The translations under genes were made by a program, and so were the position numbers. Positions 22,221 through 62,568 of a stretch of DNA of 64,000 nt are shown in pieces (the stretch's first letter is position 1; every line of letters starts with the position of its first letter). The notes under the pieces are model-generated. The model saw only the letters and a list, made by a program, of their open reading frames with translations, was not told where the DNA came from and did no database searches. This DNA comes from an uncultured Lachnospiraceae bacterium (lineage in GTDB: Bacteria > Bacillota > Clostridia > Lachnospirales > Lachnospiraceae): the NCBI GenBank assembly GCA_947630485.1, contig CANRHU010000005.1, positions 1-64,000 of the forward strand, given 5' to 3'.

Positions 22221-24596
22221 TTATATCTTTTTCAGATACAAAAGCATGCTCGCGAAATCGCCCCACTTCGGCGGGAGCAAAAGCCCCGCGTTCATGAGAA
22301 GACGGCCGCTGTAAACCTGGTTTTCTTTTCCAGAAGCATGTCCCGCCATGGCCGCGTATTCCGGCCTCTGCGCCTCCATTTTCTTCTGTTGGACGCTCTT
22401 ATATTCCTCCACCGCATAATCCGCTTCCGGATCCAGACCCTTAAGCCTTATCCGCCTGCTGTGCTGATTCGGTTTCCCGAGCACCTGCACGAAAGTGACC
22501 AGTGCCTCCGACCGATCCTTTGCGACTACCTGCCAACAGTCCAGCACATGGTTTTCCGCCCAGGAAGCGATCCGGTAGTAATCGCCCTCCCGGTTCAGAT
22601 CCGCGAACCGGTGGTACATAGCCACCTGATTCTCAATCTCCTCCCGGTCTGCCTCGGAGATCTTCGTGATATCCAGCTCGTATCCAAACGTTCCCGCCAG
22701 CGCCACATGGCCCCTGGCCACAAAGGGCGTCGTCCGCCCCACCGCGTGGTTCGGGCAGTCGCTGACGTGCGCTCCCATGGTTCCCAGCGGATAGAGCATC
22801 GCCGTACCCTCCTGAACCTCCAGGCGCTCGACGGCGTCCGTGTCGTCGGAGCACCAGATCTGCGGACTGTAATACAGCATACCGGGATCAAACCTGGCCC
22901 CTCCTCCGCAGCAGTTCTCCAGCAGAAGTTCCGGAAACTCCTTAAGGAGCCGCTCCTGCAGCTCATAGATTCCCAGCGTAAAACGGTGGGCCAGCTCGCC
23001 CTGCTGATCGTCCGCGAGATAAGAGCTTCCCAGATCGGTCAGCTGACGGTTGGAATCCCATTTCACATAGGAAATGTCGGCGCTGCGCAGAATCCCTGCC
23101 ACGCATCCGTAAACATACTCCCTCACCTCCGGCCGGGACAGATCCAGCACGTACTGGGCGCGGCTCTGGGTCGGCGTGCGGCCCGGCTGCCGCATCGCCC
23201 AGTCCGGATGCTGCCGGTACAGATCCGAATCCGGCGAAATCATTTCCGGCTCAAACCAGATGCCGAACTTCAGTCCCTCAGCCTTGACGCGGTCCACCAG
23301 CTCCTTCAGCGTACAGCCCAATTTCTCCTCATTCACAACCCAGTCGCCGAGGGAACAGTTGTCGGAATCCCTTTTCCCAAACCAGCCGTCGTCCATGACC
23401 AGCATCTCAATACCGCGCTTCTTCGCCTCACGGGCAATATCCACCAGCTTGTCGGCGTTAAACTTGAAATACGTCGCCTCCCAGTTATTGATCAGGATCG
23501 GGCGCTGCTTATGAAGGTACGGGCTGCGGATCAGATGGTTCCGGTAGAGGTCGTGGAGGGTGCGGGTCATTTTCCCAAGACCCTCGTCGGAATAGACGCA
23601 GACCACCTCCGGCGCCGTGAAGGTCTCGCCGGGCCGCAGAGCCCAGGTAAAACCCTCCGGATTGATGCCCATCATCATGCGCAGGCTGCCGAACTGGTTA
23701 AGCTCCGCCTCCGCCGTAAAGTTGCCGGAATAGATAAAATGCATGGCGTACACATCGCCGCGGTCCTGCCCCGCGTCCCGGTCCATCACCGCGATGAACG
23801 GATGGTCCTGATGGCCTGACTCGCCGCGGACGGACGACACCAGCTGCCGCCCAAGCGTCACCGGACGGCGGTTTAAATGCCGCTCCCGGGCCCAGGAGCC
23901 GTGAAGCGTCAGCAGATCCATGCCGGAATCCGCCCCCGAACCGATCCCCGCGCCGCCGCAGCCGCGTCCGACGAGACCTCCGCACAAATTCCGGTCGCTC
24001 AAATCCATATCGAAGCTGGCGCTCAGAACCTTTTCCACGTAGATTGTGGAAGCGCTCTCGTTGACCAGCCGGGCGCTCCGCATGACGGCGCGGCTGTCGT
24101 CAAAGACGCTGTAAAGCAGTGTAACCTTTAAACCTATAACCTCGTCCCGCAGGTCGATCTCCAGAGTCTGGCCGCCTGCGGCGTCTCCTGCTGCCGTCCG
24201 TCCCGAAGCTGCATCACCCGCGCTGCAGAATGTGGCCGGAAGTCCGGGAAGTTCCGGCTTTCCCTCAAGAATCCGGTATCCCGCGTAGTGCGGCTCGCAC
24301 CCGCGGTATCCCGCCTCCGTCCGCACGCGCAGACTGCTCTGCCGGTAATCGCCCACCCCCCAGGAGGCGTACTCTGTCGGAAACGTATCCGCGAAGGAAC
24401 ATTTCTCCCGCAGATTCTCTGACGGCACAAACGGCGGCTCGCCGGTGCGCATCAGATACCCGCAGCGGTCGTCGTCCAGGCGTTTCCCGAAATACACATG
24501 TCCCACATATCGATCATCGGCAATGCCGATTACATATTCCACGTCGCCGGCCGTCAGCCGAAACAGCTTCCGGTCTTTGATAAACTGAATACCCAT
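22221..24596 (-). CDS. GH36 alpha-galactosidase
   Basis: INNWEATYFKFNADKLVDIAREAKKRGIEMLVMDDGWFGKRDSDNCSLGDW, KFGIWFEPEMISPDSDL, YVKWDSNR. Confidence 0.93.
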   Translation of the reverse strand: MGIQFIKDRKLFRLTAGDVEYVIGIADDRYVGHVYFGKRLDDDRCGYLMRTGEPPFVPSENLREKCSFADTFPTEYASWGVGDYRQSSLRVRTEAGYRGCEPHYAGYRILEGKPELPGLPATFCSAGDAASGRTAAGDAAGGQTLEIDLRDEVIGLKVTLLYSVFDDSRAVMRSARLVNESASTIYVEKVLSASFDMDLSDRNLCGGLVGRGCGGAGIGSGADSGMDLLTLHGSWARERHLNRRPVTLGRQLVSSVRGESGHQDHPFIAVMDRDAGQDRGDVYAMHFIYSGNFTAEAELNQFGSLRMMMGINPEGFTWALRPGETFTAPEVVCVYSDEGLGKMTRTLHDLYRNHLIRSPYLHKQRPILINNWEATYFKFNADKLVDIAREAKKRGIEMLVMDDGWFGKRDSDNCSLGDWVVNEEKLGCTLKELVDRVKAEGLKFGIWFEPEMISPDSDLYRQHPDWAMRQPGRTPTQSRAQYVLDLSRPEVREYVYGCVAGILRSADISYVKWDSNRQLTDLGSSYLADDQQGELAHRFTLGIYELQERLLKEFPELLLENCCGGGARFDPGMLYYSPQIWCSDDTDAVERLEVQEGTAMLYPLGTMGAHVSDCPNHAVGRTTPFVARGHVALAGTFGYELDITKISEADREEIENQVAMYHRFADLNREGDYYRIASWAENHVLDCWQVVAKDRSEALVTFVQVLGKPNQHSRRIRLKGLDPEADYAVEEYKSVQQKKMEAQRPEYAAMAGHASGKENQVYSGRLLMNAGLLLPPKWGDFASMLLYLKKI

Positions 24597-28982: not shown

Positions 28983-30878
28983 CTAATTCTCCCCATTCTT
29001 CCAGTCCGGCAGCTCATCCAGCGTGATGACCCGCTCGTGGTTATAAACCTTCTGAACCATATATTCCTCTGTATATTTGTTGGACAGTCTGTGGTAGCCG
29101 TTATCGGCCATAAACTCGCCGCTCCAGGTGCAGAACCAGGCCCAGGGCGCCTGATCACGCCAGGCCAGATCCGGATCGAAGAGACAGCCGTTCTCCGAAA
29201 GCGCCACGATCTTGGCAGTCTCCGGGTAATGATCCGGGTACTCGACGGCCTCCACGAACTTCCCGCTCTGGGAAGAGTATACATAATTGCCGGGATAAAT
29301 GTCTTCGCCGATAATATCCACATATTCGTCGCCGGGATACCAGTCGGCAGACTGGCCGTTCCAGACCCAGATCAGGTTGTTCAGGCCGTGAACATTCGTC
29401 AGCCGGTCGTAGAGCAGCTTCCACAGCTCCTTACAGGGTTCCGGTCCTGCCGCGCCCCACCAGAACCAGCCGCCGGACGCCTCGTGAAGCGGCCGGAAGA
29501 GAACCGGAATGTCCGCGTCCTGAAGGATCTGAAGCTGCTCTGCGATAACGTCGATATCGTCCAGAAGCAGCGCGTAGCCCTCCTCATCTCTGCCGTCCAT
29601 AATAGCCGCCAGATCGATGTCCGTGCTGTCCGTGTAAAATGTCTTGTACCACAGGGCTCCGGATTTCGTGTATTTGTCCGGCGCCCCCCAGTGCCAGCAG
29701 AAGGTGACGATCCCGCCCAGCTTATCGTACTCAATGGCCTGTTCGATGGATTTTCCGACCGCCCCGTGGCTGGCAAATGTCGGCGAATAGTTCATGAGAT
29801 CAAGCCCCAGGATCGCCGGCTGCCTGCCGCCGGTGGCGTTCTTGATTGCAACCAGCTCAGGGCTTGCCGTGCCGTTGTCCGCCTGCTGCCCCGACAGGGT
29901 GTATTCGCCGTAGATCGACGTCAGGTATTTCATTAAATTTGCCGCGCTTTGCGAAACGTTCGGATTGATCAGCACCGGCTCCACCTCAAAGGTGCTGTCC
30001 GGCAGCCGCTCCGCCGAAGCAAACGTCATGCTGTCCAGAGCGATCCAGCCCCAGTTCTTATGGACGCCGATGCTGTGCTCTCCTGCCTCCAGATAGACCC
30101 GGCGCAACACGGATTCACCGAAAGTCTCGTCCTTCGTGGTAAATGTCCCCACTGTCGTTCCGTCCACCTGGATATCGTTGATCTTCTCTCCGCCCAGGCC
30201 GGCGCTCACCACATGGATGTCGAAGCTGCCGCTGTAGGGCACATCTACGGTGAAGGAGCAGCTGTCTCCCTCGTCCTCAAATCCGGTAAGATAACCTTCT
30301 CCGGTGTAACCTTTTATTGAATGATCCAGCTTTACTTTGCCGGTTGTCGTCATCTCTGATGCGTCAAACATATAAGAAATTGCCTCCTGTTGTTCCTCCG
30401 CCTGCGCAGTATTCGCCGCGCCGCTTCCGTTACCGCCGTTCGCGGCCGCGTCACTTTCATCGAAGCCCGCGTTCTCTGCACCGTCTGCAGATGCGGTGCC
30501 TTTATCATCAACCGCATTGCCAGTACCGCCTGCTGCTCCCACAGTATCCGTCAGAGCATCTAACGTACCATTCCCACCGGGCATGTCCGTTCCCGAATTT
30601 CCGGCAGATCCGCTCTCCGTCGCCGCGAAGGCAGCTGTTTCCTGCCCCGGCGCCGCCTGCCCCGCCGCAGTCTGCCCCATCGTCTCCGCAGGCGTACCGC
30701 CGTTGCCGCAGCCGCCGATGCACACTGCCAGCAGGCATGCCGCCAAAACGGCGCTGACACGGCGTCCCCGTAAATTTATAAGAACACTCCCTCTCCGGTT
30801 CTTAATACTGTCATTTTTTTTCCCGCTCTTCATTTCTCTGCTCTTCATCTCTCCGGCCTTCATCTCTCCGCTCCTCAC
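28983..30878 (-). CDS. GH26 beta-mannanase lipoprotein with N-terminal CBM35-like domain
   Basis: Lipobox CIGGCGN; CBM35-like MFDASEMTTTGKVKLDHSIKGYTGEGYLTGFEDEGDSCSFTVDVPYSG; GH26 VLFRPLHEASGGWFWWG, LIWVWNGQSADWYPGDEYVDIIGEDIYPG, IVALSENG. Start ambiguous (30878 GTG, 30863, 30848 or 30833 ATG). Confidence 0.9.
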   Translation of the reverse strand: MRSGEMKAGEMKSREMKSGKKNDSIKNRRGSVLINLRGRRVSAVLAACLLAVCIGGCGNGGTPAETMGQTAAGQAAPGQETAAFAATESGSAGNSGTDMPGGNGTLDALTDTVGAAGGTGNAVDDKGTASADGAENAGFDESDAAANGGNGSGAANTAQAEEQQEAISYMFDASEMTTTGKVKLDHSIKGYTGEGYLTGFEDEGDSCSFTVDVPYSGSFDIHVVSAGLGGEKINDIQVDGTTVGTFTTKDETFGESVLRRVYLEAGEHSIGVHKNWGWIALDSMTFASAERLPDSTFEVEPVLINPNVSQSAANLMKYLTSIYGEYTLSGQQADNGTASPELVAIKNATGGRQPAILGLDLMNYSPTFASHGAVGKSIEQAIEYDKLGGIVTFCWHWGAPDKYTKSGALWYKTFYTDSTDIDLAAIMDGRDEEGYALLLDDIDVIAEQLQILQDADIPVLFRPLHEASGGWFWWGAAGPEPCKELWKLLYDRLTNVHGLNNLIWVWNGQSADWYPGDEYVDIIGEDIYPGNYVYSSQSGKFVEAVEYPDHYPETAKIVALSENGCLFDPDLAWRDQAPWAWFCTWSGEFMADNGYHRLSNKYTEEYMVQKVYNHERVITLDELPDWKNGEN

Positions 30879-45692: not shown

Positions 45693-46676
45693 TTAACGCA
45701 CGCTCCCCTTTTCCACAATGAAACCAGAAACCAGGCTGAGCCTTTCGCGTCCGTTTGGCGACTCGATGCGCCTCATAACTTTCCGCAGGGCGGCATCCGC
45801 CATCCAATGCATATCCACCTCGTAGGTGGTGATATCCCGGTTGGGAAGTCCCGGATACAGATAATTGTCAAAACCGACCACCGAGACATCCTCCGGCACG
45901 CGGTATCCGTTCTCCTTCAGAACATCGATCAGATGACTCGCCACCAGATCGCAGTTGCAGACGAACGCCTCCGGCATATGCTCCGGCAGTTTCAGGACGA
46001 TCTCCCCGTCCTCCTTGCGGTCTTCCATCTGCCATTCTTCAAGGAAAAGCAGCTTATGCTCCAGCACGGAACGGCAGAAACCGCAATAGCGATCCATGAT
46101 GCTGCTGGTCGCATGAATAGAACCCACAAACGCCATCTTGCGAAACCCTTTATTATAAAGATATTCCGTCAGAAGATAGGTACCATAGAAGCCATCGGTA
46201 ATCACCGCGTCGTCAGCCACGTCCTTATAATAGAAATCCATCATGATCACCGGCTGCCTGACCCGATTCCGCAGAACCGCTATATATTCTCTGCTGAGCT
46301 CGCCCATGATAATCAGTCCTTCCACCGCATTTTCCTCGACAAAACGCGGCAGAAGCTGATTCCTCTCCGTTTCCCGCTTGAGAATCTCGGCGCTGACCAT
46401 ACAGTTCAGGTCGGATGCGGCCAGCATCAGCTCCTGATACATTTTCCAATAAAATGTGGTGTAGGTCGCCAGATATCTCTCTGAAATAATAACCCCAATA
46501 TTGCGGAGACTGCCGATATTGCGGCGCTCCTGAAAATACCCCATCTCCCTGGCGGTACTGACCACTTTCTCCCGCATCGCGTCGCTCACCCCGCGCTTGC
46601 CCGTCAGCGCATTGTGCACGGTGACCGCACTGACCCCCAGTTGATCCGCTATGTCCTGCATTCGAACCTTCGCCAT
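45693..46676 (-). CDS. LacI-family transcriptional regulator
   Basis: MAKVRMQDIADQLGVSAVTVHNALTGKRGVSDAMREKVVSTAREMGY; start chosen internal to the ORF call. Confidence 0.94.
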   Translation of the reverse strand: MAKVRMQDIADQLGVSAVTVHNALTGKRGVSDAMREKVVSTAREMGYFQERRNIGSLRNIGVIISERYLATYTTFYWKMYQELMLAASDLNCMVSAEILKRETERNQLLPRFVEENAVEGLIIMGELSREYIAVLRNRVRQPVIMMDFYYKDVADDAVITDGFYGTYLLTEYLYNKGFRKMAFVGSIHATSSIMDRYCGFCRSVLEHKLLFLEEWQMEDRKEDGEIVLKLPEHMPEAFVCNCDLVASHLIDVLKENGYRVPEDVSVVGFDNYLYPGLPNRDITTYEVDMHWMADAALRKVMRRIESPNGRERLSLVSGFIVEKGSVR

Positions 46677-46754
46677 AAAATATCCCCCATACCATACCAT
46701 CCGACCCGGCCCGCCCGAAGCGCGAACTCCAGAATCGATACTTAATTTGCTTAA

Positions 46755-46783
46755 ATTATAGCTTAAAGGTGCATTCTTGTCAA
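46755..46783 (-). promoter_or_regulatory. perfect-consensus sigma-A promoter for lacI-family gene
   Basis: Minus strand TTGACA-17 bp-TATAAT; TTTAAGC direct repeats flank the -10. Confidence 0.8.
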
Positions 46784-46837
46784 ATATATCCTCACAGGCG
46801 ATGCAAAATACGCTGCGGATTGCCTCTTCCGGGCATG

Positions 46838-46864
46838 CAAAAAGCGTGCCGCCGGCACGCTTTC
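46838..46864 (-). terminator. Rho-independent terminator of the giant surface-protein gene
   Basis: AAAGCGTGCC-GCC-GGCACGCTTT with A/T tract. Confidence 0.75.
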
Positions 46865-46914
46865 CGCATGGAAACGATATAATAAAATCACTGACTGTCC
46901 GCACACTTTATTGC

Positions 46915-49900: not shown

Positions 49901-52900
49901 CCGCCCTGACCTGTAGCGATATTCTTAACAATGCTTCCGCCATTCATATGAAATTGGGGCGTTCCGTCTGAATAGGCCGTATTCTCAGCGCCGACGCCGA
50001 CCCCGCCGCCATTGCCGCCGCGGGTGCTGTACTGACTGGCCGTATTCCCGCGGATTGTACCGCCTTTCATAATGAAGTCACCGCCATAGCTGACAAACAC
50101 GCCGCCGCCGGATGACGTCCAGTTCTTGACGGAGCTCGCCGTATTCTCCTCGATCGTGCCATCCTCCATCGTAAACGTTCCTCTGCTGATAGCTACGCCG
50201 CCGCCGAACACCGCGCTGTTGTTCTTAATCTCGCCGCCATTCATTTTTACCTTTGCGCCCGCTCCTGTGATATAGAGAGCGCCGCCGCCTATATTGGGGT
50301 TTTTCGAGGTATCGCGCACGTTATTCTGAAGGGTTACATTCTTCAGGGTCAGATTACCGCTCACCTCGATCATAGCCGCCTCAGCCGTTACCGCGCTGTC
50401 CGCGTAACCGCCGTCTATCGTCATATTTTCAAGGGTCAGCTCCTTGGTCGCCTTGATCATAGTTCCCCGGTAGCTGCTCTCGCGCACCAGACGCACGCCC
50501 TCCGGCCATGTGGCGATATCCTTAAAATCATCCTCCGTAAGAGCATTCATCAGATAAATGTCCTTTACGGCGTGCTTCTTACTGTCCTTTCCCTCACCGT
50601 TGATCCAATCAATCGCTTTCTTCAGGGATTTGAGCGGTTTATCTACCGTAAATCCATCATTTTCATCACTATCGACGCCTTTCGGATCGACGTACAGGAA
50701 GCGCTCGCCGGCCTCTACCTTGCACAGCACCACCGCCTTGTCAAATTCGGCATTCTTATCCTTATCCGGATCATCGACCAGGTCAAAAATGACGAAGGGA
50801 CTTTTCGGCTTGGACGACCACGTAACCTCCGGAAGCTTCTCTATCTTGCCGCGGATGATCGGGATCGGATCCGGTTCCGAATTCTCATCTGTCCATTCAC
50901 TTGTCGTGATACCTGAGGTCCAGGAGGATATCGTCACTTTATCTGCTTTGAATCCTTCCTTCGCCGTCAGATATGCCCCCCTTATCATGGAGACAATCTT
51001 AATCTCGTCGACAGTGTTCGAAAGATAAATAGCTGATTTACCATCCCAGGTTGTCATTGACTTGCTGCTGACTCCAAGGGACAGCGTATTCACATGCGCA
51101 TTCACATTCAGTATTCCTTTGTTGAATATACGGATTGCCCCTGTAATCTTCCCGTTGATATCCACGGTTCCGCCATTCGTCAGAGGAGCCGAAAGACTTG
51201 TTCCGCCGTCCGCTAACGCGATATCTCCGTCAAGCACCAGATGGGCGCCTTCCGCGACATTGATCTTATATGCGTTGTCCGTATTGGCCAGGATGCTGCC
51301 TGTGCCTTTCAGCGTCAGCGTTCCGCTCTTTACATTCAGTACGCTGTCGCCGTTGCCGATCCTGAGACCGGTCCCCTTTATGGCCGCGCCGTTCAGATCA
51401 ATCGTGACGTCCTTGTTGATGGAAAGCCTCTCTGTCGGAATCTGTCTGCGCTCCTGATTCAGCACGATAATATCTCCCGGCTGCGCGGCCTCAATCGCCC
51501 CTTTAAGCGTAGTGAACGTCCCATCGCCGATTTTCGCCAGCCAGTTGGCCTCGGCCGACATAACAAGCAGACTCTTTGTAGTGGTGGTTTTCCCGCTGAT
51601 TGTATCCTCAAACACATTCGTACCGGTGTTCAGCCATCCATAGTCGGTGAAATCCTTTTCTCCGTCAGTCATGTCCGCAGGAGCCAGGATATCCGCGGTT
51701 CCATTACTATAAATCATGACATCATACGCCACATTGGTGCCTTCCGCGATCTTATTGTCATACACCGCGCCGGATGTCATCTTAAAGACCGCATTTGCAG
51801 GCACATAGATGCCGCCCGCGCCCTGCGTGGCCTTTCCGAGGAGCGTATTTTCCTTAATTACGGTGTCCTCAACCGTAACCGTCTTATCGGCATAGATACC
51901 GCCCGCATTATTGCCGGAATTTCCGCTGATCGTACATCCCTTGACGTTCACGCCGCCCGCACTGAGCGCATAGATACCTCCCGCGTAACGTCCGATGTTG
52001 CCTGTGAGCTTCGTGTTTACGATATCCGCCGCGCCGCCTTCCACCGTTATCGTCGCGCCGTTTGTGCCGTCTGTAACCTTGTTGCCGGTAAATTCACTGT
52101 CCTCCACCAGTTTCTGACCGGAACCCGTAAAGTGAAGCACCGAGCGCTTGTAGAGGCTGTAACCCTTCACCGTGTTGTCGCTGACCTTCATCCCCTTAAT
52201 CGTCACCGGAGCGGACGACGATATATTGATCAGATCGCCGCTGCTTGCAAGCTCGTGATTCTCTACGGTCACATTGGTAAGGGAACAACTCTGCGGGGCG
52301 CTGATCTGAATTCCTTCATTATTCCCCGAGAATGTCACGCCGTCCAAAGCCAGGCTGTTTGCACCGGACACATAAAGACTTCCGCCCGTGCTCCTGGATA
52401 TATTGCTGCTGATCTCTACATTCTTAAGCGCCACGTTTCCTCCGGAGACTTCAAACACATACGTACCGGAGCTTGCCGTGTCAACACTGTTGCCGTTGAT
52501 CTCAGAATCCGTCAGATTCAGGGTAGAATCCTTGGAGCAGACCGCACCGCCTTTGTAATCCACATAGTTATCCAGAATCTTTAAGCCGTTGCCGTTCAGA
52601 ACAGCGCCGTTCTGCAGATAAACCGTACCCGTGTTGGTGTTTGACGCTTTGCTGGACCGCTGTTTCATATAATCGGACCGGTTGCCGGAAATCGTACAGT
52701 CGTTCATTGTCAATTCCGCGCCGTCCACCGCAAGACCTATTCCGTAAATCCTGTAATCGCCGACATTGTCCGAAATGGTACAGCCGGTCATGGTCACATC
52801 GCTTCCTCCGGAAACATACACGCCGAGGCCATAGAGGTTGCTTTCACCTGACGCGGAACCTTCGATCCGGTTGTCCGTAATCGTAACACTGTTGACCGTG

Positions 52901-55137
52901 ACATTGGCCGCCCCTTCGATATGCAGACCCATGCCGTTCTTGACGGTCCTCCAGTTATTTTGGGCCGCCGCGCGCACCATATAGCCGCCGCGGAGGATAC
53001 CGTTGTTGATCACTACCGTGCCGCCGCTGATCGAGTATACGCTGTCGTTCGCCTTGCCGGCTTCAATGATGTAGCCATCCATGTCCAGCGTATAGCTCTT
53101 CCCCTTCGACATGATATTTTCCTTCACATCCGTCAGCAGATGAATCACCGTGCTGTCCGCCGCAGCTCCGGCCGGCACTTGATCTATCGCTTCCTGCAGG
53201 GAGAAATAGGTGGCAAACGTACCGTCAGCGCCGGTAAGCACTGCCGCGGCGTTTTCCGCGTTAATCATGGCAAGCAGTTCATCCGCGTTGATACCGGCCA
53301 GTTTCTCTTCCAGTTCTTTCAGCTTGGCTATCTCATCCGGATTTTCCTTATCAAAAGCAGTCCTCGCGGCCTCCGGCAGCCCGTCATAGGCTTCGCGGGT
53401 CTCCGCCGTCTCTTCCTTTACTTCCGTTATATATGCGATAAATTTCTCTACGATCGCCTGTCGGGATTCGAGAGACGCGTTGCTGCCGCCCATCGCGTCC
53501 GCAAAGGAGCTGCGCGCAGCCGACGTTTCCTCCTCAGTACCGGGTTCAGACATTCCCGGAAGCGCAAAGGTCTGCATCCCACCCAACGTATTTCCTATTG
53601 TCGAGATACCTGAATCAGAGGCGTCAGACTCCCCGTCTGTCTCCTCATCGGTAATCTCCGCAATCACGCTCTCTTCCGCCACGGATATCTCCTCCGCAGA
53701 CGGAAGCGCCCCGATCATCTCAAGCACGGCCTGCATCAGTTCGGAGTAATCTTCCTCCACGCCGAGCAGCTTTGCCGGGATAGAGACAGCGCGGGCATAT
53801 GCCATTCCATCGTCGATGGACAGGGCCGGATAGATTTTCTCCTCCGCGTTATGCGTATTCGAATTGGAAAGCAGCACTTTGTACTGCGCCCGTTCCTCTT
53901 CGGACAGTTCGGCTAACGGATCGTATTCCCCGCCCCCCCGGAAGGCGCCCGCGGCACCGCCGCCTGAACCGCCTCCTGAGAGCGACCCGGACGAAGTTCC
54001 GTTGGAAGGGGTCGCCGGTTCCGGTTCCGATTCCGATTCCTCCTTCGGCATCGGCTGCGCTGCCAGAGGAACCTGGTCATTCGCGATTTCCACAGACGGC
54101 TGCGTAGAAATGGGTTCCGAAGCCGGCTCCGTGCCTGTGTCGTCTTCGTCAGCCCCTGAATCGGCTTCCGGCGCCGTCTCATTGTCCCCAAAATCCTGCT
54201 CATCCGCGTCCAACTGCTGGGAGGACACCCCATTCGCTTCCTGCCCGGAGCCGTACGCTTCATTCTCCGGCGCCGGGCTCTGCGGCCCCTCCGTCTGCTT
54301 CTCGGTTTCTCCGTCTGCTTCTTCTGTATTCGTCTCGGAGCCTGTCGGTTCAGAGACGTCGTCTGACGGCATCACTTCCTCCGTCTCATCGGATTCCGAT
54401 GTCTCGTCTTCCTGCAGCCCATCATCCGCGGGCATATCGCCGTCAAGGACATCGTCTTCGTCTGTTTCGGAACCCATCCCACCGGCCGGATTGCCGTCCG
54501 CGTCTGTCTCCATTTTCTCTCCGCCGATGATATTGCCGTCCGCGTCCGTCTCCAGCACGTCTTCGCCAATGATATTGCCGTCGGCGTCTGTCTCCTTAAC
54601 GACGCTTCCGCCCGCTCCGAGGCCTGCGCCGCCTGCGCCAAAGCCCGCGCCGTACGCCTCCTCCGCCGGCATCGCGGATTTCACCTGCACGATCTGGGTT
54701 ATATAATTTCCGATCTGCGCGCGGAACGCCATTGTCTCTTCACCCGCATTGATGAAGAGCAGGATCACGCGGTCTGTCCCCGCATGATAAAGTACGCGCA
54801 CCTCCGCGCCGTCCGCGGGCAAAAGCTCCCACGGACGCACCGACAATTCATAAACCTCGTCGGTATCGGATCCCAGAAGTTTACGGTATTCCCCAAGACT
54901 GTTCTGATCTTCCTCCGCCGCGAGCCACCCAAAATCAAACAAATCGCCGGACTCCTTTGCCGCCGTAATCGCATCCTGAAGCTCCTGCTCGTCGATCACG
55001 TAGCGGACAGCAGAGGCGCTCTCGGCAGCATACGCCGTACCCAGTCCGGCGGTCATCACGTTCGTGGCGACCATCGCCAGGGACAGCAGGAATGCTCCCA
55101 ACCTCCGATAATTCTTTTTCACCCGCGTTAACAGCAT
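46915..55137 (-). CDS. giant (about 2740 aa) surface protein: acidic repeat region, parallel beta-helix, pilin-linker/Cna-B-like domains, Pro-rich wall region, sortase-like C-terminus
   Basis: Signal peptide from MLLTRVKKNYRRLGAFLLSLAMVATNVMTAGLGTAYAA; beta-helix repeats (GNSGNNAGGIYADKTVTVEDTVIKENT); LELRKRVVVPEG / LELRKTVVSDTG domains; (DNPPPPS)n; C-terminus APMTGDEKPVGAAALFGLVALGMMGIFGILGRRKNEEDA. Confidence 0.87.
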   Translation of the reverse strand: MLLTRVKKNYRRLGAFLLSLAMVATNVMTAGLGTAYAAESASAVRYVIDEQELQDAITAAKESGDLFDFGWLAAEEDQNSLGEYRKLLGSDTDEVYELSVRPWELLPADGAEVRVLYHAGTDRVILLFINAGEETMAFRAQIGNYITQIVQVKSAMPAEEAYGAGFGAGGAGLGAGGSVVKETDADGNIIGEDVLETDADGNIIGGEKMETDADGNPAGGMGSETDEDDVLDGDMPADDGLQEDETSESDETEEVMPSDDVSEPTGSETNTEEADGETEKQTEGPQSPAPENEAYGSGQEANGVSSQQLDADEQDFGDNETAPEADSGADEDDTGTEPASEPISTQPSVEIANDQVPLAAQPMPKEESESEPEPATPSNGTSSGSLSGGGSGGGAAGAFRGGGEYDPLAELSEEERAQYKVLLSNSNTHNAEEKIYPALSIDDGMAYARAVSIPAKLLGVEEDYSELMQAVLEMIGALPSAEEISVAEESVIAEITDEETDGESDASDSGISTIGNTLGGMQTFALPGMSEPGTEEETSAARSSFADAMGGSNASLESRQAIVEKFIAYITEVKEETAETREAYDGLPEAARTAFDKENPDEIAKLKELEEKLAGINADELLAMINAENAAAVLTGADGTFATYFSLQEAIDQVPAGAAADSTVIHLLTDVKENIMSKGKSYTLDMDGYIIEAGKANDSVYSISGGTVVINNGILRGGYMVRAAAQNNWRTVKNGMGLHIEGAANVTVNSVTITDNRIEGSASGESNLYGLGVYVSGGSDVTMTGCTISDNVGDYRIYGIGLAVDGAELTMNDCTISGNRSDYMKQRSSKASNTNTGTVYLQNGAVLNGNGLKILDNYVDYKGGAVCSKDSTLNLTDSEINGNSVDTASSGTYVFEVSGGNVALKNVEISSNISRSTGGSLYVSGANSLALDGVTFSGNNEGIQISAPQSCSLTNVTVENHELASSGDLINISSSAPVTIKGMKVSDNTVKGYSLYKRSVLHFTGSGQKLVEDSEFTGNKVTDGTNGATITVEGGAADIVNTKLTGNIGRYAGGIYALSAGGVNVKGCTISGNSGNNAGGIYADKTVTVEDTVIKENTLLGKATQGAGGIYVPANAVFKMTSGAVYDNKIAEGTNVAYDVMIYSNGTADILAPADMTDGEKDFTDYGWLNTGTNVFEDTISGKTTTTKSLLVMSAEANWLAKIGDGTFTTLKGAIEAAQPGDIIVLNQERRQIPTERLSINKDVTIDLNGAAIKGTGLRIGNGDSVLNVKSGTLTLKGTGSILANTDNAYKINVAEGAHLVLDGDIALADGGTSLSAPLTNGGTVDINGKITGAIRIFNKGILNVNAHVNTLSLGVSSKSMTTWDGKSAIYLSNTVDEIKIVSMIRGAYLTAKEGFKADKVTISSWTSGITTSEWTDENSEPDPIPIIRGKIEKLPEVTWSSKPKSPFVIFDLVDDPDKDKNAEFDKAVVLCKVEAGERFLYVDPKGVDSDENDGFTVDKPLKSLKKAIDWINGEGKDSKKHAVKDIYLMNALTEDDFKDIATWPEGVRLVRESSYRGTMIKATKELTLENMTIDGGYADSAVTAEAAMIEVSGNLTLKNVTLQNNVRDTSKNPNIGGGALYITGAGAKVKMNGGEIKNNSAVFGGGVAISRGTFTMEDGTIEENTASSVKNWTSSGGGVFVSYGGDFIMKGGTIRGNTASQYSTRGGNGGGVGVGAENTAYSDGTPQFHMNGGSIVKNIATGQGGGIYIQADCEAHISAGEISYNECYSHTPTGGLYGGGGIYVNGWKDNEEHKVGGLYLTNVEITGNTAASNGGAIAACPSSKDYIYMKNGGAIYDNTVNGKKYDIYVNFIQIGGMGGWVNVSNDNIRFTSFDGEQRPYHWKYVDSGKEVPVNHLDDIHSWDNSTLKIYTDLEEPTKEYAVKMTGNKSATSGGAIGTNGTLRIGDQEEIEMTLQKEWEYGELTEEQLQSLKIPTEVVINVYRGVRKSTSGTTGTESASNNAAGIKLMAYNGGIQLLNGAGIDPEKREPENGNAQMVADWNDPKYADIDWGAENVEDREPIFSLVLRRTPMQKAWNSVTFRDFLKKDAEGNLYYYYFEEIMPSDTSEDEMGKNQETEQKIQLADLFKRMFEEGSYGGETGRMEVDDAMYASMLTFAEAVSEFATIGGYRPEIEVDGTTIRIKNTPISNLVLAKIVKTYGRQDEDTDKDVTFQIRLKKDGKTYTPESLQALVGDAQETTALTPDASGLYSVNVNVDPSFVKKDVDVNLDVDLDRDGNKDTVKVTAYMSFPVILLNLESGVTCEIVELGGEEAHNCADAVYVGYNDRGSLLESKSAGFELTEGENSVVFQNRYDAGDLELRKRVVVPEGVKLAELPEFEFTVEVKPANGRQLHNGQYDAVRTDSAGEVTYEKVDFVNGVASVTLQDGESLRIPGLPADADFTVKEKAQEDYTESYRVLLPDQNANGKTDEDEVLENCNTGKIQINTVVVVETENRIDTGSLELRKTVVSDTGEPLSEEEKNTEFHFDVTFRHPYASEMKVLVDGQERVLKLTKSGELYEGSIDDLALKADEKRTITNLLAGTQYTVSEKEIPEGYYADYGETGAAEAAGQIQADQTAVVSVTNHHGGDNPPPPSDNPPPPSDNPPPPGDNPPPPSYTPPATPEYPSSNPPTPTTPVTNIPDEPTPLSGLETILDEDVPLAFMAPMTGDEKPVGAAALFGLVALGMMGIFGILGRRKNEEDA
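47176..47262. repeat. 21-bp coding repeat (DNPPPPS/G, four copies)
   Basis: GGDNPPPPSDNPPPPSDNPPPPGDNPPPPSYTPP. Confidence 0.9.
54469..54594. repeat. 42-bp coding repeat (ETDADGNIIGxxxx, three copies)
   Basis: ETDADGNIIGEDVL / ETDADGNIIGGEKM / ETDADGNPAGGMGS. Confidence 0.88.
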
Positions 55138-55229
55138 TATACTTTCCTCTCTTTCTGCTCTAAATGCAGCAGCCATGTTTGTTCATAAAGCAGATACCCC
55201 TTGTTATGGGTATGATTATAACATGCATG

Positions 55230-55393: not shown

Positions 55394-57721
55394 TCACGCA
55401 ATAATCAGCGACACCAGGTAAAACGGGATTTCCGCCTCCTCCGCGTCCGTAAGCCGGAGCGTCAGCGTATGCATCGCCTCTGTCTCCGCTTCAAGGACCG
55501 TCTCAAGCGCGAGACAGTCTCCCCAGGTCTCATCAAAATTGCCGTCCAGAACCGTCCGCGGCTTTTTCTGTATAGCGGCACAGTCCAGATAGACCTCAGC
55601 CTTCGGCGCGCGTCCCCGGATTGTCCGGCGGTACTGAACCGCGATACAGGATGCCCGGAAACAGAAGGTGATCTCAGCGCCGTTTAAAATGGCGGTCCAC
55701 CCGCGCTTAAAGACGTCCGCAAGCCCCTGCTGAGGCGCTGCATCCGCCTCGAAACCGGCGTTTGCCGCAGGCGCGATATCCGCGGCGCGAAGACGCCTGG
55801 CATGTTCATATCGGTTGCGGGTGAGCGGCTGAGGAATTGCCATCCCAGCAGACGCCTGCCCCCGCTCCGCTTCTTCCTCGCACAGCTTCTCCTGCCGGAC
55901 TTCTCCCCTCCGTTCCTCATCTACCTTCTCAAGGAAGCCGCAGATCATCTCCGCGATCATTCTATGCCCCCTGTCGTTGGGATGCAGGCCGTCCGGCGTC
56001 ACCTCTTCCGCGGTCAGTTCCCCTGTCTGGAGCTTTCCCCAGAGCACATCGCCCACGCAGACCCGCGGCAGCCCGTAATGGCGTCCGATCCGGTCGTGAA
56101 CCGGCTGCGCCGAAGCTCCGGTATCATAGAAGCGGTTGTGGATCAGCACGACGGCCGGCTGCCAGTCACAGTTCCAGATTCGGCGGATCAGTCCCTCATA
56201 GGTCTCCATAAAATGGGAATCATCCGTATCGTTGACCGAGAATTCCACGAACACCAGATCCGGCCGGTACGAAAGCAGATCGTCCTCCGCCCGGGCAGCG
56301 CCGTAATGGGAGGTGGTACCCCCGATTCCGGCATTGATATACCGCGCCTTCGACGACGGAAAATGTCCCTGCCACCAGTCAAACGTCAGCGCGGCGTAAC
56401 ATTTTTCCGGCCCCGATGCAAGGCTTCCCTGGGTAATGGAGCCGCCCAGAAAGCCAATGGCAGCATCCTCTCCGGCAGCCGCGCGCCTCATGACGTTTTG
56501 AAGGCGCGTCGTATCACGCCAGATATCCTCGCCCAGACTCTCGATGAATGCCGAAAGCTCCTTCGCCATCTGTTCCGCCTCCGGAACCCGGATATGGCCC
56601 TGCGTTCCGCAGCCGTTCTTACTGAACATGAAATGACGCACCGGCAAATGTTCCATGAAAAGCTGCCTGCACACCTCCCCGATGGCCCTGTCCCAGTTGG
56701 GATGATGCCCCAGGATCGTGGTCATGCAGATGATCTGGGCCTGCGGATGGATTCGGCAGAGCCGCCGCACGAACTCCGCATAATGCGCCCGCCACGCCGC
56801 GGACTTCTCTCCGTCGTAATCTTCGCCGCAGAAATCGGCCGGATAGGCGTCGTTCTGCCCCAGTGCCACAAGCACGACCTGGGGACGATACCGGCCGAAA
56901 TCCCATTTCACTGCCGGCCGGCCGCCGAGAATCTGCGGCTGGTACTGGATCAGGTCATAAATGCTCTCCATCCCCTGCTGCCGCGGCTCCATGAAATATC
57001 CGCAGCCGTCCATGAGGGCGATGCCGCCCTGGGCGATATCGTGGAGTCTGGCCCCCAACCGGCGGGCCGTAAGCCACGCATAGGAATAGTAGCTGTTGGA
57101 ATATTCCCCGTGATGATCCGGATCCGGCAGTCCGCAGTAGTCTACCGCCTCCGACACCTCGCCGGCAGACACGGAATCGCCGTAAACCTCGATGCAGCGC
57201 TGCGGTAAAGGCTCACACGGAAGGAGCCGCAGACCCGGATTTCCGAGGAAACCGTGTATCTGCACCATATGGCAGGAGTCCTGACGTTTGAAGAGGAGCA
57301 GGTCATGGACCGCCGCGCTCTCACAGGCCGGCACGCTGCCGGAACCCGCGCCTGCGGCGCGCGGCGTCCCCGCCTGCGCGGCCCCCATAAGTTCCACGCA
57401 CGCCGTTCCGCTTTCCGGCAGCTTCACGCAATACTGCCCTCCATCCAAAAGATAACCCAGATAATTGTCCCAGTAGGCGTGCTCATTGGTCAGCACCACA
57501 GACAACCTGTCTCCGGTAAACCTCAGTTTTACATAGGTTGCCGGATATACCCACACCGGCCCGGCTTCCCCGCTAAAGTCAATCCGCCCCTCGTACTGCA
57601 GCTTCTCATCCCAGGGAGAAATCCATACGTCGTCCGTCTGCGCGTACGGCGCCAGCTTCTGCCGCCAGACGGCAGCATTTTCCGCAGTCTTTCCGGCCGC
57701 GTCTTCCACATTCTTCCTCAT
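55394..57721 (-). CDS. double SGNH-hydrolase esterase (CE2-like module + CE17-like module)
   Basis: First set: IEVYGDSVSAGE, VLVALGQNDAYP, GTQGHIRVPEAEQMAKEL. Second set: IGFLGGSITQGSLAS, INAGIGGTTSHYG, VFVEFSVNDTDDSHF, TPDGLHPNDRGH. No signal peptide. Confidence 0.87.
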   Translation of the reverse strand: MRKNVEDAAGKTAENAAVWRQKLAPYAQTDDVWISPWDEKLQYEGRIDFSGEAGPVWVYPATYVKLRFTGDRLSVVLTNEHAYWDNYLGYLLDGGQYCVKLPESGTACVELMGAAQAGTPRAAGAGSGSVPACESAAVHDLLLFKRQDSCHMVQIHGFLGNPGLRLLPCEPLPQRCIEVYGDSVSAGEVSEAVDYCGLPDPDHHGEYSNSYYSYAWLTARRLGARLHDIAQGGIALMDGCGYFMEPRQQGMESIYDLIQYQPQILGGRPAVKWDFGRYRPQVVLVALGQNDAYPADFCGEDYDGEKSAAWRAHYAEFVRRLCRIHPQAQIICMTTILGHHPNWDRAIGEVCRQLFMEHLPVRHFMFSKNGCGTQGHIRVPEAEQMAKELSAFIESLGEDIWRDTTRLQNVMRRAAAGEDAAIGFLGGSITQGSLASGPEKCYAALTFDWWQGHFPSSKARYINAGIGGTTSHYGAARAEDDLLSYRPDLVFVEFSVNDTDDSHFMETYEGLIRRIWNCDWQPAVVLIHNRFYDTGASAQPVHDRIGRHYGLPRVCVGDVLWGKLQTGELTAEEVTPDGLHPNDRGHRMIAEMICGFLEKVDEERRGEVRQEKLCEEEAERGQASAGMAIPQPLTRNRYEHARRLRAADIAPAANAGFEADAAPQQGLADVFKRGWTAILNGAEITFCFRASCIAVQYRRTIRGRAPKAEVYLDCAAIQKKPRTVLDGNFDETWGDCLALETVLEAETEAMHTLTLRLTDAEEAEIPFYLVSLIIA

Positions 57722-57723
57722 TT

Positions 57724-58746
57724 TTACCTTCTTCCGATCTCCGTATCCGTCGTATTCACCTTGCTATGGTCTTTGATGTAATCTATAATATCATCCAGCT
57801 TCGTAAACGCCAACCCCACATAGCTGTCCGCCGCGCCGTAATAGATCGCGATCCGGCCGCTTTCGCTGTCGTGAATCGTCGCGCAGGGGAAGCAGACATT
57901 GGGCACAAACCCCCGCTCCTCATACCATTCCTCCGGCGTCAGAAGGAAATCCTCGCAGCGGTACTTCACGACGGACGGATCGTCGATATCGAGAATCGCG
58001 CCGCCGATGCTGTAGACATAACCGTTGCAGGTTCCGGAAACGCCGTGGTAGAACAGAAGCCATCCTTCGCTGGTCTCAATCGGAGCCGCGCCGCCGCCGA
58101 TCTTTAAGGACTCCCACCACTCGCTTCCCTTGCTCATCACATGCCTGTGCCTGCCCCAGTATACCAGATCCGGGCTCTCGCTTAAGAACACGTCGCCAAA
58201 CGGCGTATGGCCGCTGTCTGACGGACGGCTCAGCAGGCAGTAATTTCCGTGAATCTTCCGCGGAAACAGCACCGCATTGCGGTTAAACGGCAGAAATGGA
58301 TTCTCCAGCCGCGTAAACGTCTTAAAATCCGTCGTCTTCGCCATGCCGATGGCCGCGCCGTAAAAATCCTGGCACCAGATGATGTAGTAGGTATCCTCCA
58401 CCTTCACCAGGCGCGGATCATAGGCGTAAACCGGCATGAACGGCTTTCCCTCCTCGTCCACGAACGGGATCTTCTCCTCGTCAAACTCCCAGCGAACGGC
58501 ATCCCCGCTTCTGCCCAGATAGATATAAGGGATCCCATTGTTCTGCTCGCCGCGGAACACGCCGATGAAAGCATCCCCGTAGGGCATAACGGCGCTGTTG
58601 AAAATGCGCGCCACATTTTTCAGCGGATTGCGGCCGATGATGGGATTCTCACTGTAACGCCAGACGGGCGCTCCGGTGAAGGAAGCCGGTTCCTCCTGCC
58701 ATGGCATATTCGGAACAGGCGGTGCAATTAATTTGTACTTACTCAT
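57724..58746 (-). CDS. GH130 beta-mannoside/mannooligosaccharide phosphorylase
   Basis: NPIIGRNPLKNVARIFNSAVMPYGDAFIGVFRGEQNNGIPYIYLGRSGD, YDPRLVKVEDTYYIIWC, WESLKIGGGAAPIETSEGWLLFYHG. Confidence 0.93.
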   Translation of the reverse strand: MSKYKLIAPPVPNMPWQEEPASFTGAPVWRYSENPIIGRNPLKNVARIFNSAVMPYGDAFIGVFRGEQNNGIPYIYLGRSGDAVRWEFDEEKIPFVDEEGKPFMPVYAYDPRLVKVEDTYYIIWCQDFYGAAIGMAKTTDFKTFTRLENPFLPFNRNAVLFPRKIHGNYCLLSRPSDSGHTPFGDVFLSESPDLVYWGRHRHVMSKGSEWWESLKIGGGAAPIETSEGWLLFYHGVSGTCNGYVYSIGGAILDIDDPSVVKYRCEDFLLTPEEWYEERGFVPNVCFPCATIHDSESGRIAIYYGAADSYVGLAFTKLDDIIDYIKDHSKVNTTDTEIGRR

Positions 58747-58866
58747 GATCATTCTCCTCTCATTGCTGTATATTCTGTTTCAATATTCTCCTTTTCTACA
58801 GGATGCCGGATGCGCCTGATTTCGCTGACCCCGTCCGTTCCCTCAAAACGTGCGGTTTTTGGGCGT

Positions 58867-60717
58867 TTACAGATTCGCCGCCCCGATCATCCCTGCCTTG
58901 CTGCCGAGAGCCGCCATAGCCAGTTCCGGCTGCTCCCCGCCCGGACCGCCGAAGCAGTTCTCTGAAACCATTCGCCGCAGCGGTTCCAGAAGCGTCTCGC
59001 CTCCGGACGGTATCTCGCCGCCCAGCAGAACCTCCTGCGGACGGAAGATATTAACAATATTCACAATTCCGGTTCCCAGTCTGCGGATATATTCCTCCAC
59101 CACCGGCAGAAGCGCCCCGTCTCCCGCCTCCGCCGCCGCAAAAATCTGTTCCGGCAGAAGCGCGCGCCCGCATGCCTTTTCAGCCTCGCGGACCAGCGCC
59201 GGGAGCGATACGTAGGCCTCCAGGCATCCTCTCCGCCCGCAGCTGCAGGGCTCGCCGTTCTCCACAATGACCATATGGCCCAGCTCCGCGCCGCCCACGT
59301 GGCCTCCCTCGTAGATTTCGCCGTCCAGAATGATTCCGCTGCCGACCCCGGTTCCCAGCGTCAGCATGACCAGATCCTGACAGTCCTTCCCCGCGCCGGC
59401 CACGGACTCGCCGAGCGCCGCACAGTCGGCGTTATTGGCAATCCGCACCGGAATCGGGAACAAATTCCGAAACATTTCCGCCAGACTCACATTCTCCCAG
59501 CGGATATTATTGGAATAGCGGACGATCCCTTTTTCCCTGTCCACGGTTCCTGGCACGCCGACGCCGGCTCCCACGCACTGGTCGATGCAGATTCCGGTCT
59601 CCTCCAAAAGCTCCCGCGTCCGGGCAGCGATATCCTCGGCCACTCTCTGTGCGCCGCGCTCCGCCCTCGTCGGCATGACCTTCTCCGCGATCAGCTTCTG
59701 GTGAATATCCACAAGACCAATCCGGGTGTCCGTCCCGCCGATATCGATGCCGATCCGCACCGGCGCCGATTTCTCGCGAATCCGGGTGATCAGCGCGTCG
59801 CAGCTCCCCTCGATCTGATACTCACCGCTTCCGGCAGCCAGAAAGAAGCTGTCGCCCTTCCGGTAAGCCACCGTTTCCCCCTGGCAGGAGATCTGGCCCT
59901 CCCCGTCAAGTACCAGAATGCTGGCAAAAGATTCCCCCGAAACCGTCCCCCTCAAAAGCTTCATCATTGTGCCGTCCAGCGTCACACGATCCACCGTAAA
60001 ATAGTCGCAGTCAGCCACATGGGGATAGCTGCCGCCGCTCTTTCGGATCGGCGTCCGGTTCGTGACAGCCAGCGCTTTTTCGATATGCAGATCGCGCTTT
60101 TTACCGTCCTTACCCACGCGGCCATAGTCGTACACACGGTAGGTCACGTTGGAATTCTGCTGAATCTCCGCGATCAGAATGTCCTTGCCGATGGCATGGA
60201 TGGTTCCGGCTTCAATGAACAGCACGTCCCCTTTCCGCACGGGCACCGCGTTCAGAACCTCCAAGAGCGTGTCCTCACGGATTCTTTGGGCGAACTCCTC
60301 CCGGCTGATCTCCTTCTGAAACCCATAGTAAAGGAACGCCTCCGGTCCCGCGTCCATCACATACCACATCTCGGTCTTGCCATACTGCCCTTCGTGCTGC
60401 AGGGCGTACCGGTTGTCCGGATGAACCTGGATCGACAGATTTTCCCTCGCGTCAATGAATTTGATCAGAATCGGAAAATCCCGAAAGCGCCTGCAATGGA
60501 CTCCCAGCGCCTCTTTCCCCAGCTTCTGTATGTATTCCGGAAGCGTCATGCCGGCACATGGCCCGCTGTCCACCACGGACGGGCCGTCCGGGTGACAGGA
60601 CAGCTCCCAGCACTCCGCCAGCACATCCCCGTCGTACTGCTTGCCGTACTCCTCGATCAGACGGCGTCCGCCCCAGATATAATCCTTACAGCTTGGTTTT
60701 AACCTCACGATCCCCAT
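58867..60717 (-). CDS. fusion: class I mannose-6-phosphate isomerase + ROK-family sugar kinase
   Basis: N-half WGGRRLIEEYGK, IDARENLSIQVHPDN, GQYGKTEMWYVMDAGPEAFLYYGF; C-half VRIGIDIGGTDTRIGLVD, GVGVPGTVD, LGTGVGSGIILDGEIYEGGHVGGAELGHM, CSCGRRGCLEAYVS. Confidence 0.93.
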   Translation of the reverse strand: MGIVRLKPSCKDYIWGGRRLIEEYGKQYDGDVLAECWELSCHPDGPSVVDSGPCAGMTLPEYIQKLGKEALGVHCRRFRDFPILIKFIDARENLSIQVHPDNRYALQHEGQYGKTEMWYVMDAGPEAFLYYGFQKEISREEFAQRIREDTLLEVLNAVPVRKGDVLFIEAGTIHAIGKDILIAEIQQNSNVTYRVYDYGRVGKDGKKRDLHIEKALAVTNRTPIRKSGGSYPHVADCDYFTVDRVTLDGTMMKLLRGTVSGESFASILVLDGEGQISCQGETVAYRKGDSFFLAAGSGEYQIEGSCDALITRIREKSAPVRIGIDIGGTDTRIGLVDIHQKLIAEKVMPTRAERGAQRVAEDIAARTRELLEETGICIDQCVGAGVGVPGTVDREKGIVRYSNNIRWENVSLAEMFRNLFPIPVRIANNADCAALGESVAGAGKDCQDLVMLTLGTGVGSGIILDGEIYEGGHVGGAELGHMVIVENGEPCSCGRRGCLEAYVSLPALVREAEKACGRALLPEQIFAAAEAGDGALLPVVEEYIRRLGTGIVNIVNIFRPQEVLLGGEIPSGGETLLEPLRRMVSENCFGGPGGEQPELAMAALGSKAGMIGAANL

Positions 60718-60837: not shown

Positions 60838-62568
60838 TCAGCGGACCATCTCCTGCGCCGCCGCCGTCATATGCTCCAGCTTCCCTGCGGCGTCCTCCTC
60901 ATCCGTTCCCAGAACGCCGACATAGAATTTGATCTTCGGCTCCGTGCCTGACGGCCGCACGCAGCACCAGGCTCCGCCTTCCATTTCAAAATACAGCACA
61001 TCCGATTCCGGAAGCCCGGCTGCCGTCTGCCTGCCGGACGCACAGTCCAGCACCAGATTCTTCCGGTAATCCCGAAACTGCGTCACACGCGCGCCGCCAA
61101 TCTCCTGCGGCACGCTGCTCCTTATCCCTTCCATGATCTCCCGGATTCTCCTCGCGCCGTCCTGTCCCTTTAATGTAACCGTACACAGGCCTTCCCTGTG
61201 ATACCCGTAAGCGCGGTACAGCTGACGCATCTGATCGCACAGCGTCATTCCGTGATAATGATACCAGGCCGCCGCCTCGCAGAGGGCCATCACCGCCGAT
61301 ACCGCGTCCTTGTCCCTGGCGTAGGTTCCCACAAGACATCCGTAACTCTCCTCATAACCGAAAAGATACTCAAAGGAATGCTCCTGTTCAAAGTACTTAA
61401 TCTGTTCACCGATATACTTAAATCCGGTCAGCGTCTCAATCCGCTTCACGCCGTAGGCGTCCGCGATCGCCTTCGACATTTTCCCGGACACGATCGTTGT
61501 AACTACGGCCCCGTTTTCGGGAAGACGGCCCTGGGCCTTTTTGCGGGACAGGCGGTACTCCATGATCAGCATTCCCGACATATTGCCGGTAAAACTCATA
61601 TACCTGCCGGTGACCGCATCCTTCGCGTAGACGCCCAGCCGATCCGCATCCGGGTCCGTCGCCAAAACGATATCCGCGTCCACCTCTTCCGCCAGCTTAA
61701 GCGCCAGGGAAAATGCTTTCGCATCCTCCGGATTCGGATACGATACGGTGGGAAAATCCCCATGCGGCAGTTCCTGTTCCTTTACAACGTAAACCTGTTC
61801 AAACCCCAACTCCTTTAGAATACGCCGCACCGGAAGGTTACCGGTTCCGTGAAGCGGCGTATACACGACCTTCAGCTTTCTGGCCTCTGTTCTCACAATC
61901 TCCGGTTCCAGCACCAGCCGTTTCAGCTCCTCCATGTAGCGGTCGTCGATCTCGCTGCCAATCAGCCGGTAAAGCCCGCGCTGCTCCGCCTCCGCCTTCT
62001 CCATGGTCTTCACACAGGCGTAATCGGAGATCGCGTTCACTTCACGGATAATCTCTTTGTCCCTGGGCGCCGTGATCTGGGCTCCGTCCGCCCAATAAAC
62101 CTTGTAACCATTATATTCCGGCGGGTTATGACTCGCGGTTACAACAATGCCCGCCGTACAGCCCAGCTCCCGCAGGGCAAAGGAAAGCATCGGCGTCGGC
62201 CGCAGGGACGAAAATACCCAGGCCCGAATCCCGTTGGCCGCCAGGCAGCAGGCCGCCTCGTCCGCAAACTCCTTGGACATATGCCGTGAATCATAGGCAA
62301 CAGCGACGCCCGGAACCGGATCGGCCGCTCTCTCCTGCCGGATATAATTCGCCAGCCCTTGTGTCGCCTTGCGGACCGTATAGATGTTCATCCGGTTTGT
62401 CCCCGCGCCGATCACGCCCCGCAGGCCCCCGGTTCCAAACGCAAGATCCCGATAAAAGCGGTCCTCGATCTGCGCTTCGTCGCCTTCTATCCCTCGCAGC
62501 TCTTTCTTCGTCTCTTCATCAAAATACGGATTCTCAAGCCATTCCTCGTATTTCTCCCTTACATTCAT
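60838..62568 (-). CDS. phosphoglucomutase/phosphomannomutase
   Basis: LRGVIGAGTNRMNIYTVRKATQGLANYI, GIVVTASHNPPEYNGYKVYWADGAQI, ATDPDADRLGV, RPSGTEPKIKFYVG. Confidence 0.95.
   Translation of the reverse strand: MNVREKYEEWLENPYFDEETKKELRGIEGDEAQIEDRFYRDLAFGTGGLRGVIGAGTNRMNIYTVRKATQGLANYIRQERAADPVPGVAVAYDSRHMSKEFADEAACCLAANGIRAWVFSSLRPTPMLSFALRELGCTAGIVVTASHNPPEYNGYKVYWADGAQITAPRDKEIIREVNAISDYACVKTMEKAEAEQRGLYRLIGSEIDDRYMEELKRLVLEPEIVRTEARKLKVVYTPLHGTGNLPVRRILKELGFEQVYVVKEQELPHGDFPTVSYPNPEDAKAFSLALKLAEEVDADIVLATDPDADRLGVYAKDAVTGRYMSFTGNMSGMLIMEYRLSRKKAQGRLPENGAVVTTIVSGKMSKAIADAYGVKRIETLTGFKYIGEQIKYFEQEHSFEYLFGYEESYGCLVGTYARDKDAVSAVMALCEAAAWYHYHGMTLCDQMRQLYRAYGYHREGLCTVTLKGQDGARRIREIMEGIRSSVPQEIGGARVTQFRDYRKNLVLDCASGRQTAAGLPESDVLYFEMEGGAWCCVRPSGTEPKIKFYVGVLGTDEEDAAGKLEHMTAAAQEMVR

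Follow-up and report, generated by a model that had tools for sequence, protein, structure and literature searches.

An uncultured Lachnospiraceae bacterium in all likelihood encodes a cytoplasmic acetyl esterase with two active sites, the product of a CE2 and a CE17 gene joined in frame, in which the CE17 half would attack 2-O-acetyl groups and the CE2 half 3-O-, 4-O- and 6-O-acetyl groups. The gene occupies positions 55394..57721 on the minus strand of the window, by which we mean the whole 64,000-nucleotide stretch of DNA analysed here. The chemistry and both families are known; what appears to be new is their union in a single chain, a genuine and conserved joining of two known enzyme families that has apparently gone undescribed. 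A full-text search of open-licence papers, a scope that excludes the founding CE17 paper (Michalak et al. 2020, PNAS), recovered no fused CE2-CE17 protein, and the string 'CE2-CE17' occurs in those papers once, for an enzyme pair (PMC13390407).

Relationship to known systems

In R. intestinalis and F. prausnitzii separate CE17 enzymes remove 2-O-acetyls and CE2 enzymes remove 3-/4-/6-O-acetyls, so that together they cover all positions (PMC8262883; PMC6385246), and the enzymes of the two species share this complementary specificity at only 32% (CE2) and 46% (CE17) identity (PMC8262883). RiCE2 and RiCE17 (RiCEX) belong to the same two families and the same type of locus (GH26, GH36, GH130, ABC transporter, LacI) as the gene described here, but they are products of separate genes, ROSINTL182_05471 and 05473 (PMC6385246), whereas here one chain carries the CE2 domain first. 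In F. prausnitzii the mannan pathway is intracellular, and FpCE17 (2-O) and FpCE2 (3-/4-/6-O) complement each other in it, again as separate proteins (PMC8262883). The CE6-CE1 and CE1-CE1 proteins of Bacteroidota are likewise single chains in which two esterase catalytic domains serve different tasks (PMC7110780, PMC8040265); however, they act on xylan acetyl and feruloyl targets, they represent other CE families, further domains separate their two esterases, and the CE2-CE17 combination is absent from them. BcCE7 and BcCE25 of B. cellulosilyticus provide a further case of complementary two-enzyme mannan deacetylation (PMC13276840), but they come from other families, are separate proteins and show less strict positional specificity.

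Architecture and active sites of the fused protein

The open reading frame begins with an ATG at 57721, ends at 55394 on the minus strand and encodes 775 amino acids. Pfam detects CE2_N (PF17996) at residues 43-106 (E=2.6e-16, with a score of 60 against a cut-off of 27.9 bits) and two GDSL stretches (Lipase_GDSL_2, E=3.6e-27), all well above chance. The CE2 half (residues ~39-395; 56537..57607, minus strand) combines the CE2_N beta-sandwich with an SGNH domain. The CE17 half (residues ~403-775) comprises an SGNH domain (residues ~403-605; 55907..56515, minus strand), in which PF13472 matches residues 424-587, and a C-terminal CBM35-like domain (residues ~630-775; 55397..55834, minus strand). 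The two halves meet at a practically linker-free junction, LGEDIWRDTT (residues 396-405; 56507..56536, minus strand). Every motif that the initial annotation had cited for two SGNH sets was located in the protein, namely GDSVS at residue 181, GQND at 288, GHIR at 375, GGSIT at 426, SVND at 495 and DGLHP at 577, and its reading of CE2-like and CE17-like modules in a single polypeptide is upheld by the agreement of Pfam, PDB sequence matches, Foldseek and a profile comparison to 2WAO.

In a PDB sequence search CtCE2, the CE2 enzyme of C. thermocellum (2WAO), aligns with residues 41-333 (E=7e-16), and with a profile of the CE2 half the alignment runs on to the C-terminus of that half (E=2.4e-33). 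The NCBIfam equivalog AxeC2 is also hit (E=2.2e-19), at 69.5 against a 500-bit cut-off, which places the CE2 half outside that equivalog. The predicted nucleophile is Ser183 of GDSVS (57173..57175, minus strand), which aligns with Ser in 2WAO and with Ala in the active-site mutant 2WAB. Asn290 of GQND (56852..56854, minus strand) is the block III oxyanion-hole residue, and His376 of GHIR (56594..56596, minus strand), which aligns with the His of the DWHPS motif of CtCE2, is the predicted catalytic base; both are invariant in alignments A2 and A4. All three residues are unchanged in every CE2 row compared, fused or unfused. Block V reads GTQGH, with no Asp or Glu, and an acid is equally missing from the unfused CE2 relatives compared. 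As Ser-His dyads without a block V acid are common among CE2 enzymes (PMC9487903), this pattern fits a CE2-type dyad. Hence the earlier ascription of complete SGNH block sets to both halves holds for the CE17 half, whereas the CE2 half has the Ser-His dyad with the block V acid absent, as is usual in its family. A Ser-His pair, the loss of which from one half would have spoken against a two-headed enzyme, is present by alignment in both.

These observations bear on the possibility that one half has changed its role, such that the CE2 half mainly binds or positions carbohydrate, or that both halves have the same specificity. Non-catalytic binding is known for some CE2 domains (title of entry 2W9X), and the absent block V acid could be read in the same way. 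Against this, the Ser, Asn and His are invariant, the acid is no more present in unfused relatives, and the dN/dS of the CE2 half is low; we accordingly consider a change of role improbable. By homology, activity at both sites is what we would expect of the fused protein, with complementary positional specificity suggested by comparison with the characterised pairs; for the CE2 half, the predicted 3-/4-/6-O specificity derives from similarity at the level of the clade.

Residues 406-773 match R. intestinalis RiCE17/CEX (6HFZ, E=1e-99) in the PDB sequence search, with an identity of 46-49% (46% in the structure alignment). The predicted nucleophile Ser428 of GGSIT (56438..56440, minus strand), Asn497, and Asp577 and His580 of the block V DGLH (55982..55993, minus strand) are identical in 6HFZ, and RiCE17 falls in the same CE17 tree as the fused sequence. 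Also retained is the equivalent of RiCE17 Trp326, a stacking residue tied to 2-O specificity (PMC7666174), in the form of Trp733 within the CBM35-like domain, where Trp is invariant in the alignment. This domain was delineated from the alignment along 6HFZ, which extends to residue 773; the Pfam CBM35 model gave no match in the C-terminal part of the CE17 half.

An AlphaFold2 model of the fused protein, built from 12 sequences, is of moderate confidence only (mean pLDDT 77.8, pTM 0.58). Its input, alignment A4, consisted of the fused proteins and of in-frame neighbour pairs read through the stop codon purely as an alignment device; a mixed alignment of fused, CE2-only and CE17-only sequences (A1) was dropped because CE17 rows landed on the CE2 half. 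Foldseek matched the model to 6HFZ over 374 aligned columns (E=1e-38, TM 0.88 by target length) and its CE2 half to 2WAB (E=1e-21, TM 0.79 by target length).

Cellular location and genomic context

The N-terminus is devoid of a hydrophobic stretch: its best 15-residue Kyte-Doolittle mean is 0.01, versus 2.6 for the GH26 lipoprotein of the window. Such a segment is likewise absent from every fused homologue, and is present in the GH26 and in one solute-binding protein of the window. As the longest stop-to-stop frame is 789 amino acids, a long N-terminal extension is impossible. Hydropathy thus agrees with the lack of a signal peptide recorded in the initial annotation, and we infer that the esterase is cytoplasmic. 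Export of the esterase, to act on polymeric mannan outside the cell, would be in keeping with the exported GH26 mannanase of the same genome, but it is very improbable in light of the N-termini of the homologues, the position of the gene 2 nucleotides after a GH130 phosphorylase gene, and the cytoplasmic action of the characterised homologues.

That neighbour is a GH130_2 beta-1,4-mannooligosaccharide phosphorylase (57724..58752, minus strand; 5AYD, E=4.1e-112; 4UDG, E=1.5e-115), whose stop codon lies 2 nucleotides ahead of the esterase ATG, with AGAAGG found shortly upstream of the latter. Beyond it lie a fusion of phosphomannose isomerase with a ROK sugar kinase (58867..60717, minus strand; Pfam, NCBIfam manA above cut-off, PDB 1QWR and 2QM1) and a phosphoglucomutase/phosphomannomutase (60838..62568, minus strand; Pfam). 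The isomerase-kinase chain itself unites two consecutive steps of mannose use and is kept in related mannan loci. The order phosphomutase, isomerase-kinase, GH130 and fused esterase is preserved in several related genomes. Elsewhere in the window are a GH26 beta-mannanase with a CBM35 and an N-terminal lipobox-like signal (28983..30878, minus strand; Pfam, 3ZM8 with E=2.4e-97, hydropathy), a GH36 alpha-galactosidase (22221..24596, minus strand; Pfam Melibiase), a LacI-family regulator (45693..46904, minus strand; Pfam), a GH2, and genes for a solute-binding protein and permeases, the ABC permeases being named from the look of their sequences and from weak similarity to permeases in other mannan loci, without Pfam support. 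The hallmarks of a Bacillota beta-mannan locus, namely an exported GH26, an ABC importer, GH36, GH130, LacI and a phosphomutase, are thus all found near the esterase, and the suggested mannan-locus context is borne out by the GH130_2, isomerase-kinase, phosphomutase, GH26-CBM35, GH36 and LacI genes.

Two further markers of such a locus are a second phosphorylase, GH130_1, and a mannobiose epimerase. A single GH130 was found in the genome itself (~95% complete), while related loci carry two, and the best match to the epimerase family lies on a separate contig, C8. The same contig encodes a 617-residue protein with a CE17-like SGNH domain (L002:982-2835, minus strand; 37% identity) between flanks that could be assigned to no family, and similar proteins of 560-620 residues are encoded by many Lachnospiraceae. 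A 2753-residue surface-like protein (46915-55176, minus strand) is encoded between the esterase and LacI genes; it contains DUF7601 domains and a proline-rich stretch, and its C-terminus appears to be a membrane anchor.

Distribution and origin of the fusion

The fused frame was recovered from nine genomes: that of the window, seven congeners (L003-L009, contigs of public 'Lapin' MAGs) and L010, which is labelled Acetatifactor sp. Within the genus a strong CE2/CE17 match was obtained for 8 genomes, all of which carry the fused form; 18 of the 26 genomes of the genus, many of them incomplete, gave no strong match. In a sample of 397 genomes of the family the fusion is confined to the window and one congener, and beyond the window's own genome it was absent from even samples of 392 genomes of the order and 392 of the class. 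In five of the congeners (L003-L007) low-complexity AGNAGAGRE-like repeats of variable length precede the CE2 domain; these are absent in L010. The fused sequences form a single clade in trees of both halves (support 100/99 for CE2 and 100/98 for CE17). In both trees their sister is the genome G300, which is less well supported in that position by CE2 than by CE17; there the CE2 gene precedes the CE17 gene with a gap of 74 nucleotides.

An artefact of sequencing or assembly, by which a stop codon was deleted, might come to mind, since a short gap is what distinguishes the neighbouring lineages without the fusion. However, the same junction is free of insertions and deletions in all nine fused genes at 57-84% identity, and the independence of these genomes refutes an artefact, to which we assign practically no weight. 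The number of genomes, the single clade in both half-trees, the indel-free junction and the low dN/dS together establish that the fusion is no assembly error. Purifying selection acts on both halves, with dN/dS values of about 0.06-0.30 (Nei-Gojobori; dS is near saturation in comparisons with L010); the CBM35-like C-terminal part evolves fastest, with values of up to 0.30 against L010.

In unfused Lachnospiraceae the CE2 and CE17 genes are often adjacent, in either order, and several pairs with CE2 ahead of CE17 are in the same frame, 3-15 nucleotides apart. The single chain would thus appear to have emerged when a CE2 gene was joined in frame to a CE17 gene already directly downstream in a mannan locus. 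Compared with the closest in-frame pairs, which are not the sister lineage, the fused proteins are about six residues shorter at the junction. Given this difference, loss of one stop codon alone fits less well, and a short deletion that removed stop, gap and start is plausible. We also considered Met411 as an internal start yielding a separate CE17 protein. This candidate was rejected, as no sequence resembling a ribosome-binding site was seen by eye before it, and the Met belongs to a conserved VMxRA motif that is internal in unfused CE17 proteins too.

The CE2-CE17 fusion is one among several welded steps in related mannan loci, and the cytosolic mannan pathway of Lachnospiraceae looks unusually fusion-prone, an impression gained within mannan loci. 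GH1-CE2 fusions of ~805 residues occur in other Lachnospiraceae (L012:8630-11050, L030:8630-11044, L122:8211-10631), the GH1 domain having been shown for L122. A GH130-CE2 fusion of 742 residues (L132:9043-11271, minus strand) overlaps the downstream CE17 gene by 13 nucleotides. We further observed fusions of CE17 with phosphomannose isomerase (L016:11294-13435, L029:9905-12121), tandem CE17-CE17 proteins, which carry a pair of SGNH domains (L120:10849-13227, L121:6673-9147), and fusions of a cellobiose/mannobiose epimerase-like domain with a GH130 phosphorylase (L010:6448-8859, L134:10571-12988, L135:5601-7946).

Functional and evolutionary implications

We propose that the GH26 mannanase would free acetylated (gluco)mannooligosaccharides outside the cell, which the ABC transporter would import. 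In the cytoplasm the CE17 half, equipped with a CBM35-like lid and the stacking Trp733, would strip axial 2-O-acetyls, and the CE2 half, through its Ser-His dyad, would strip 3-O-, 4-O- and 6-O-acetyls. The deacetylated oligosaccharides may then pass to the GH130_2 phosphorylase, the GH36 and other enzymes.

Any benefit of fusion would lie in a fixed 1:1 supply and in neighbouring active sites, rather than in true channelling. For the fused CE6-CE1 enzyme of B. ovatus intramolecular synergy has been reported (PMC7110780, PMC8040265). Mixing FpCE2 and FpCE17, on the other hand, gave no rate synergy and instead produced competition (PMC8262883), and fusion need not therefore bring a catalytic gain. 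This lack of synergy, the adjacent in-frame pairs of unfused relatives and the single origin of the fusion would all suit a near-neutral removal of the stop codon between adjacent co-transcribed genes, tolerated without functional advantage. Retention of the fusion in every same-genus genome with a strong match and in the diverged ninth, with an indel-free junction, argues in the other direction, as does the recurrent fusion of other cytosolic mannan enzymes, which suggests a tendency. A fusion without advantage is a serious contender, to which we give somewhat less than even chances. It touches the benefit alone and is compatible with the role of a cytoplasmic, two-active-site acetyl esterase proposed above.

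It is conceivable, if rather speculative, that the tight junction holds the 2-O and 3-/6-O sites such that an oligosaccharide loses all its acetyls in a single encounter, with migrated ones caught as well, as part of a wider tendency of Lachnospiraceae to join consecutive enzymes of cytosolic mannan use into single chains. Such a relay would, equally tentatively, extend to doubly acetylated residues, which require CE17 first.

If both sites are active, a single enzyme would clear every acetyl position from mannan oligosaccharides, and it would be useful in the processing of acetylated galactoglucomannan fibre. The unfused in-frame relatives would then offer natural controls for comparing fusion with co-expression of complementary esterases. 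The series from adjacent through in-frame to fused genes shows a path by which an operon can give rise to a bifunctional enzyme.
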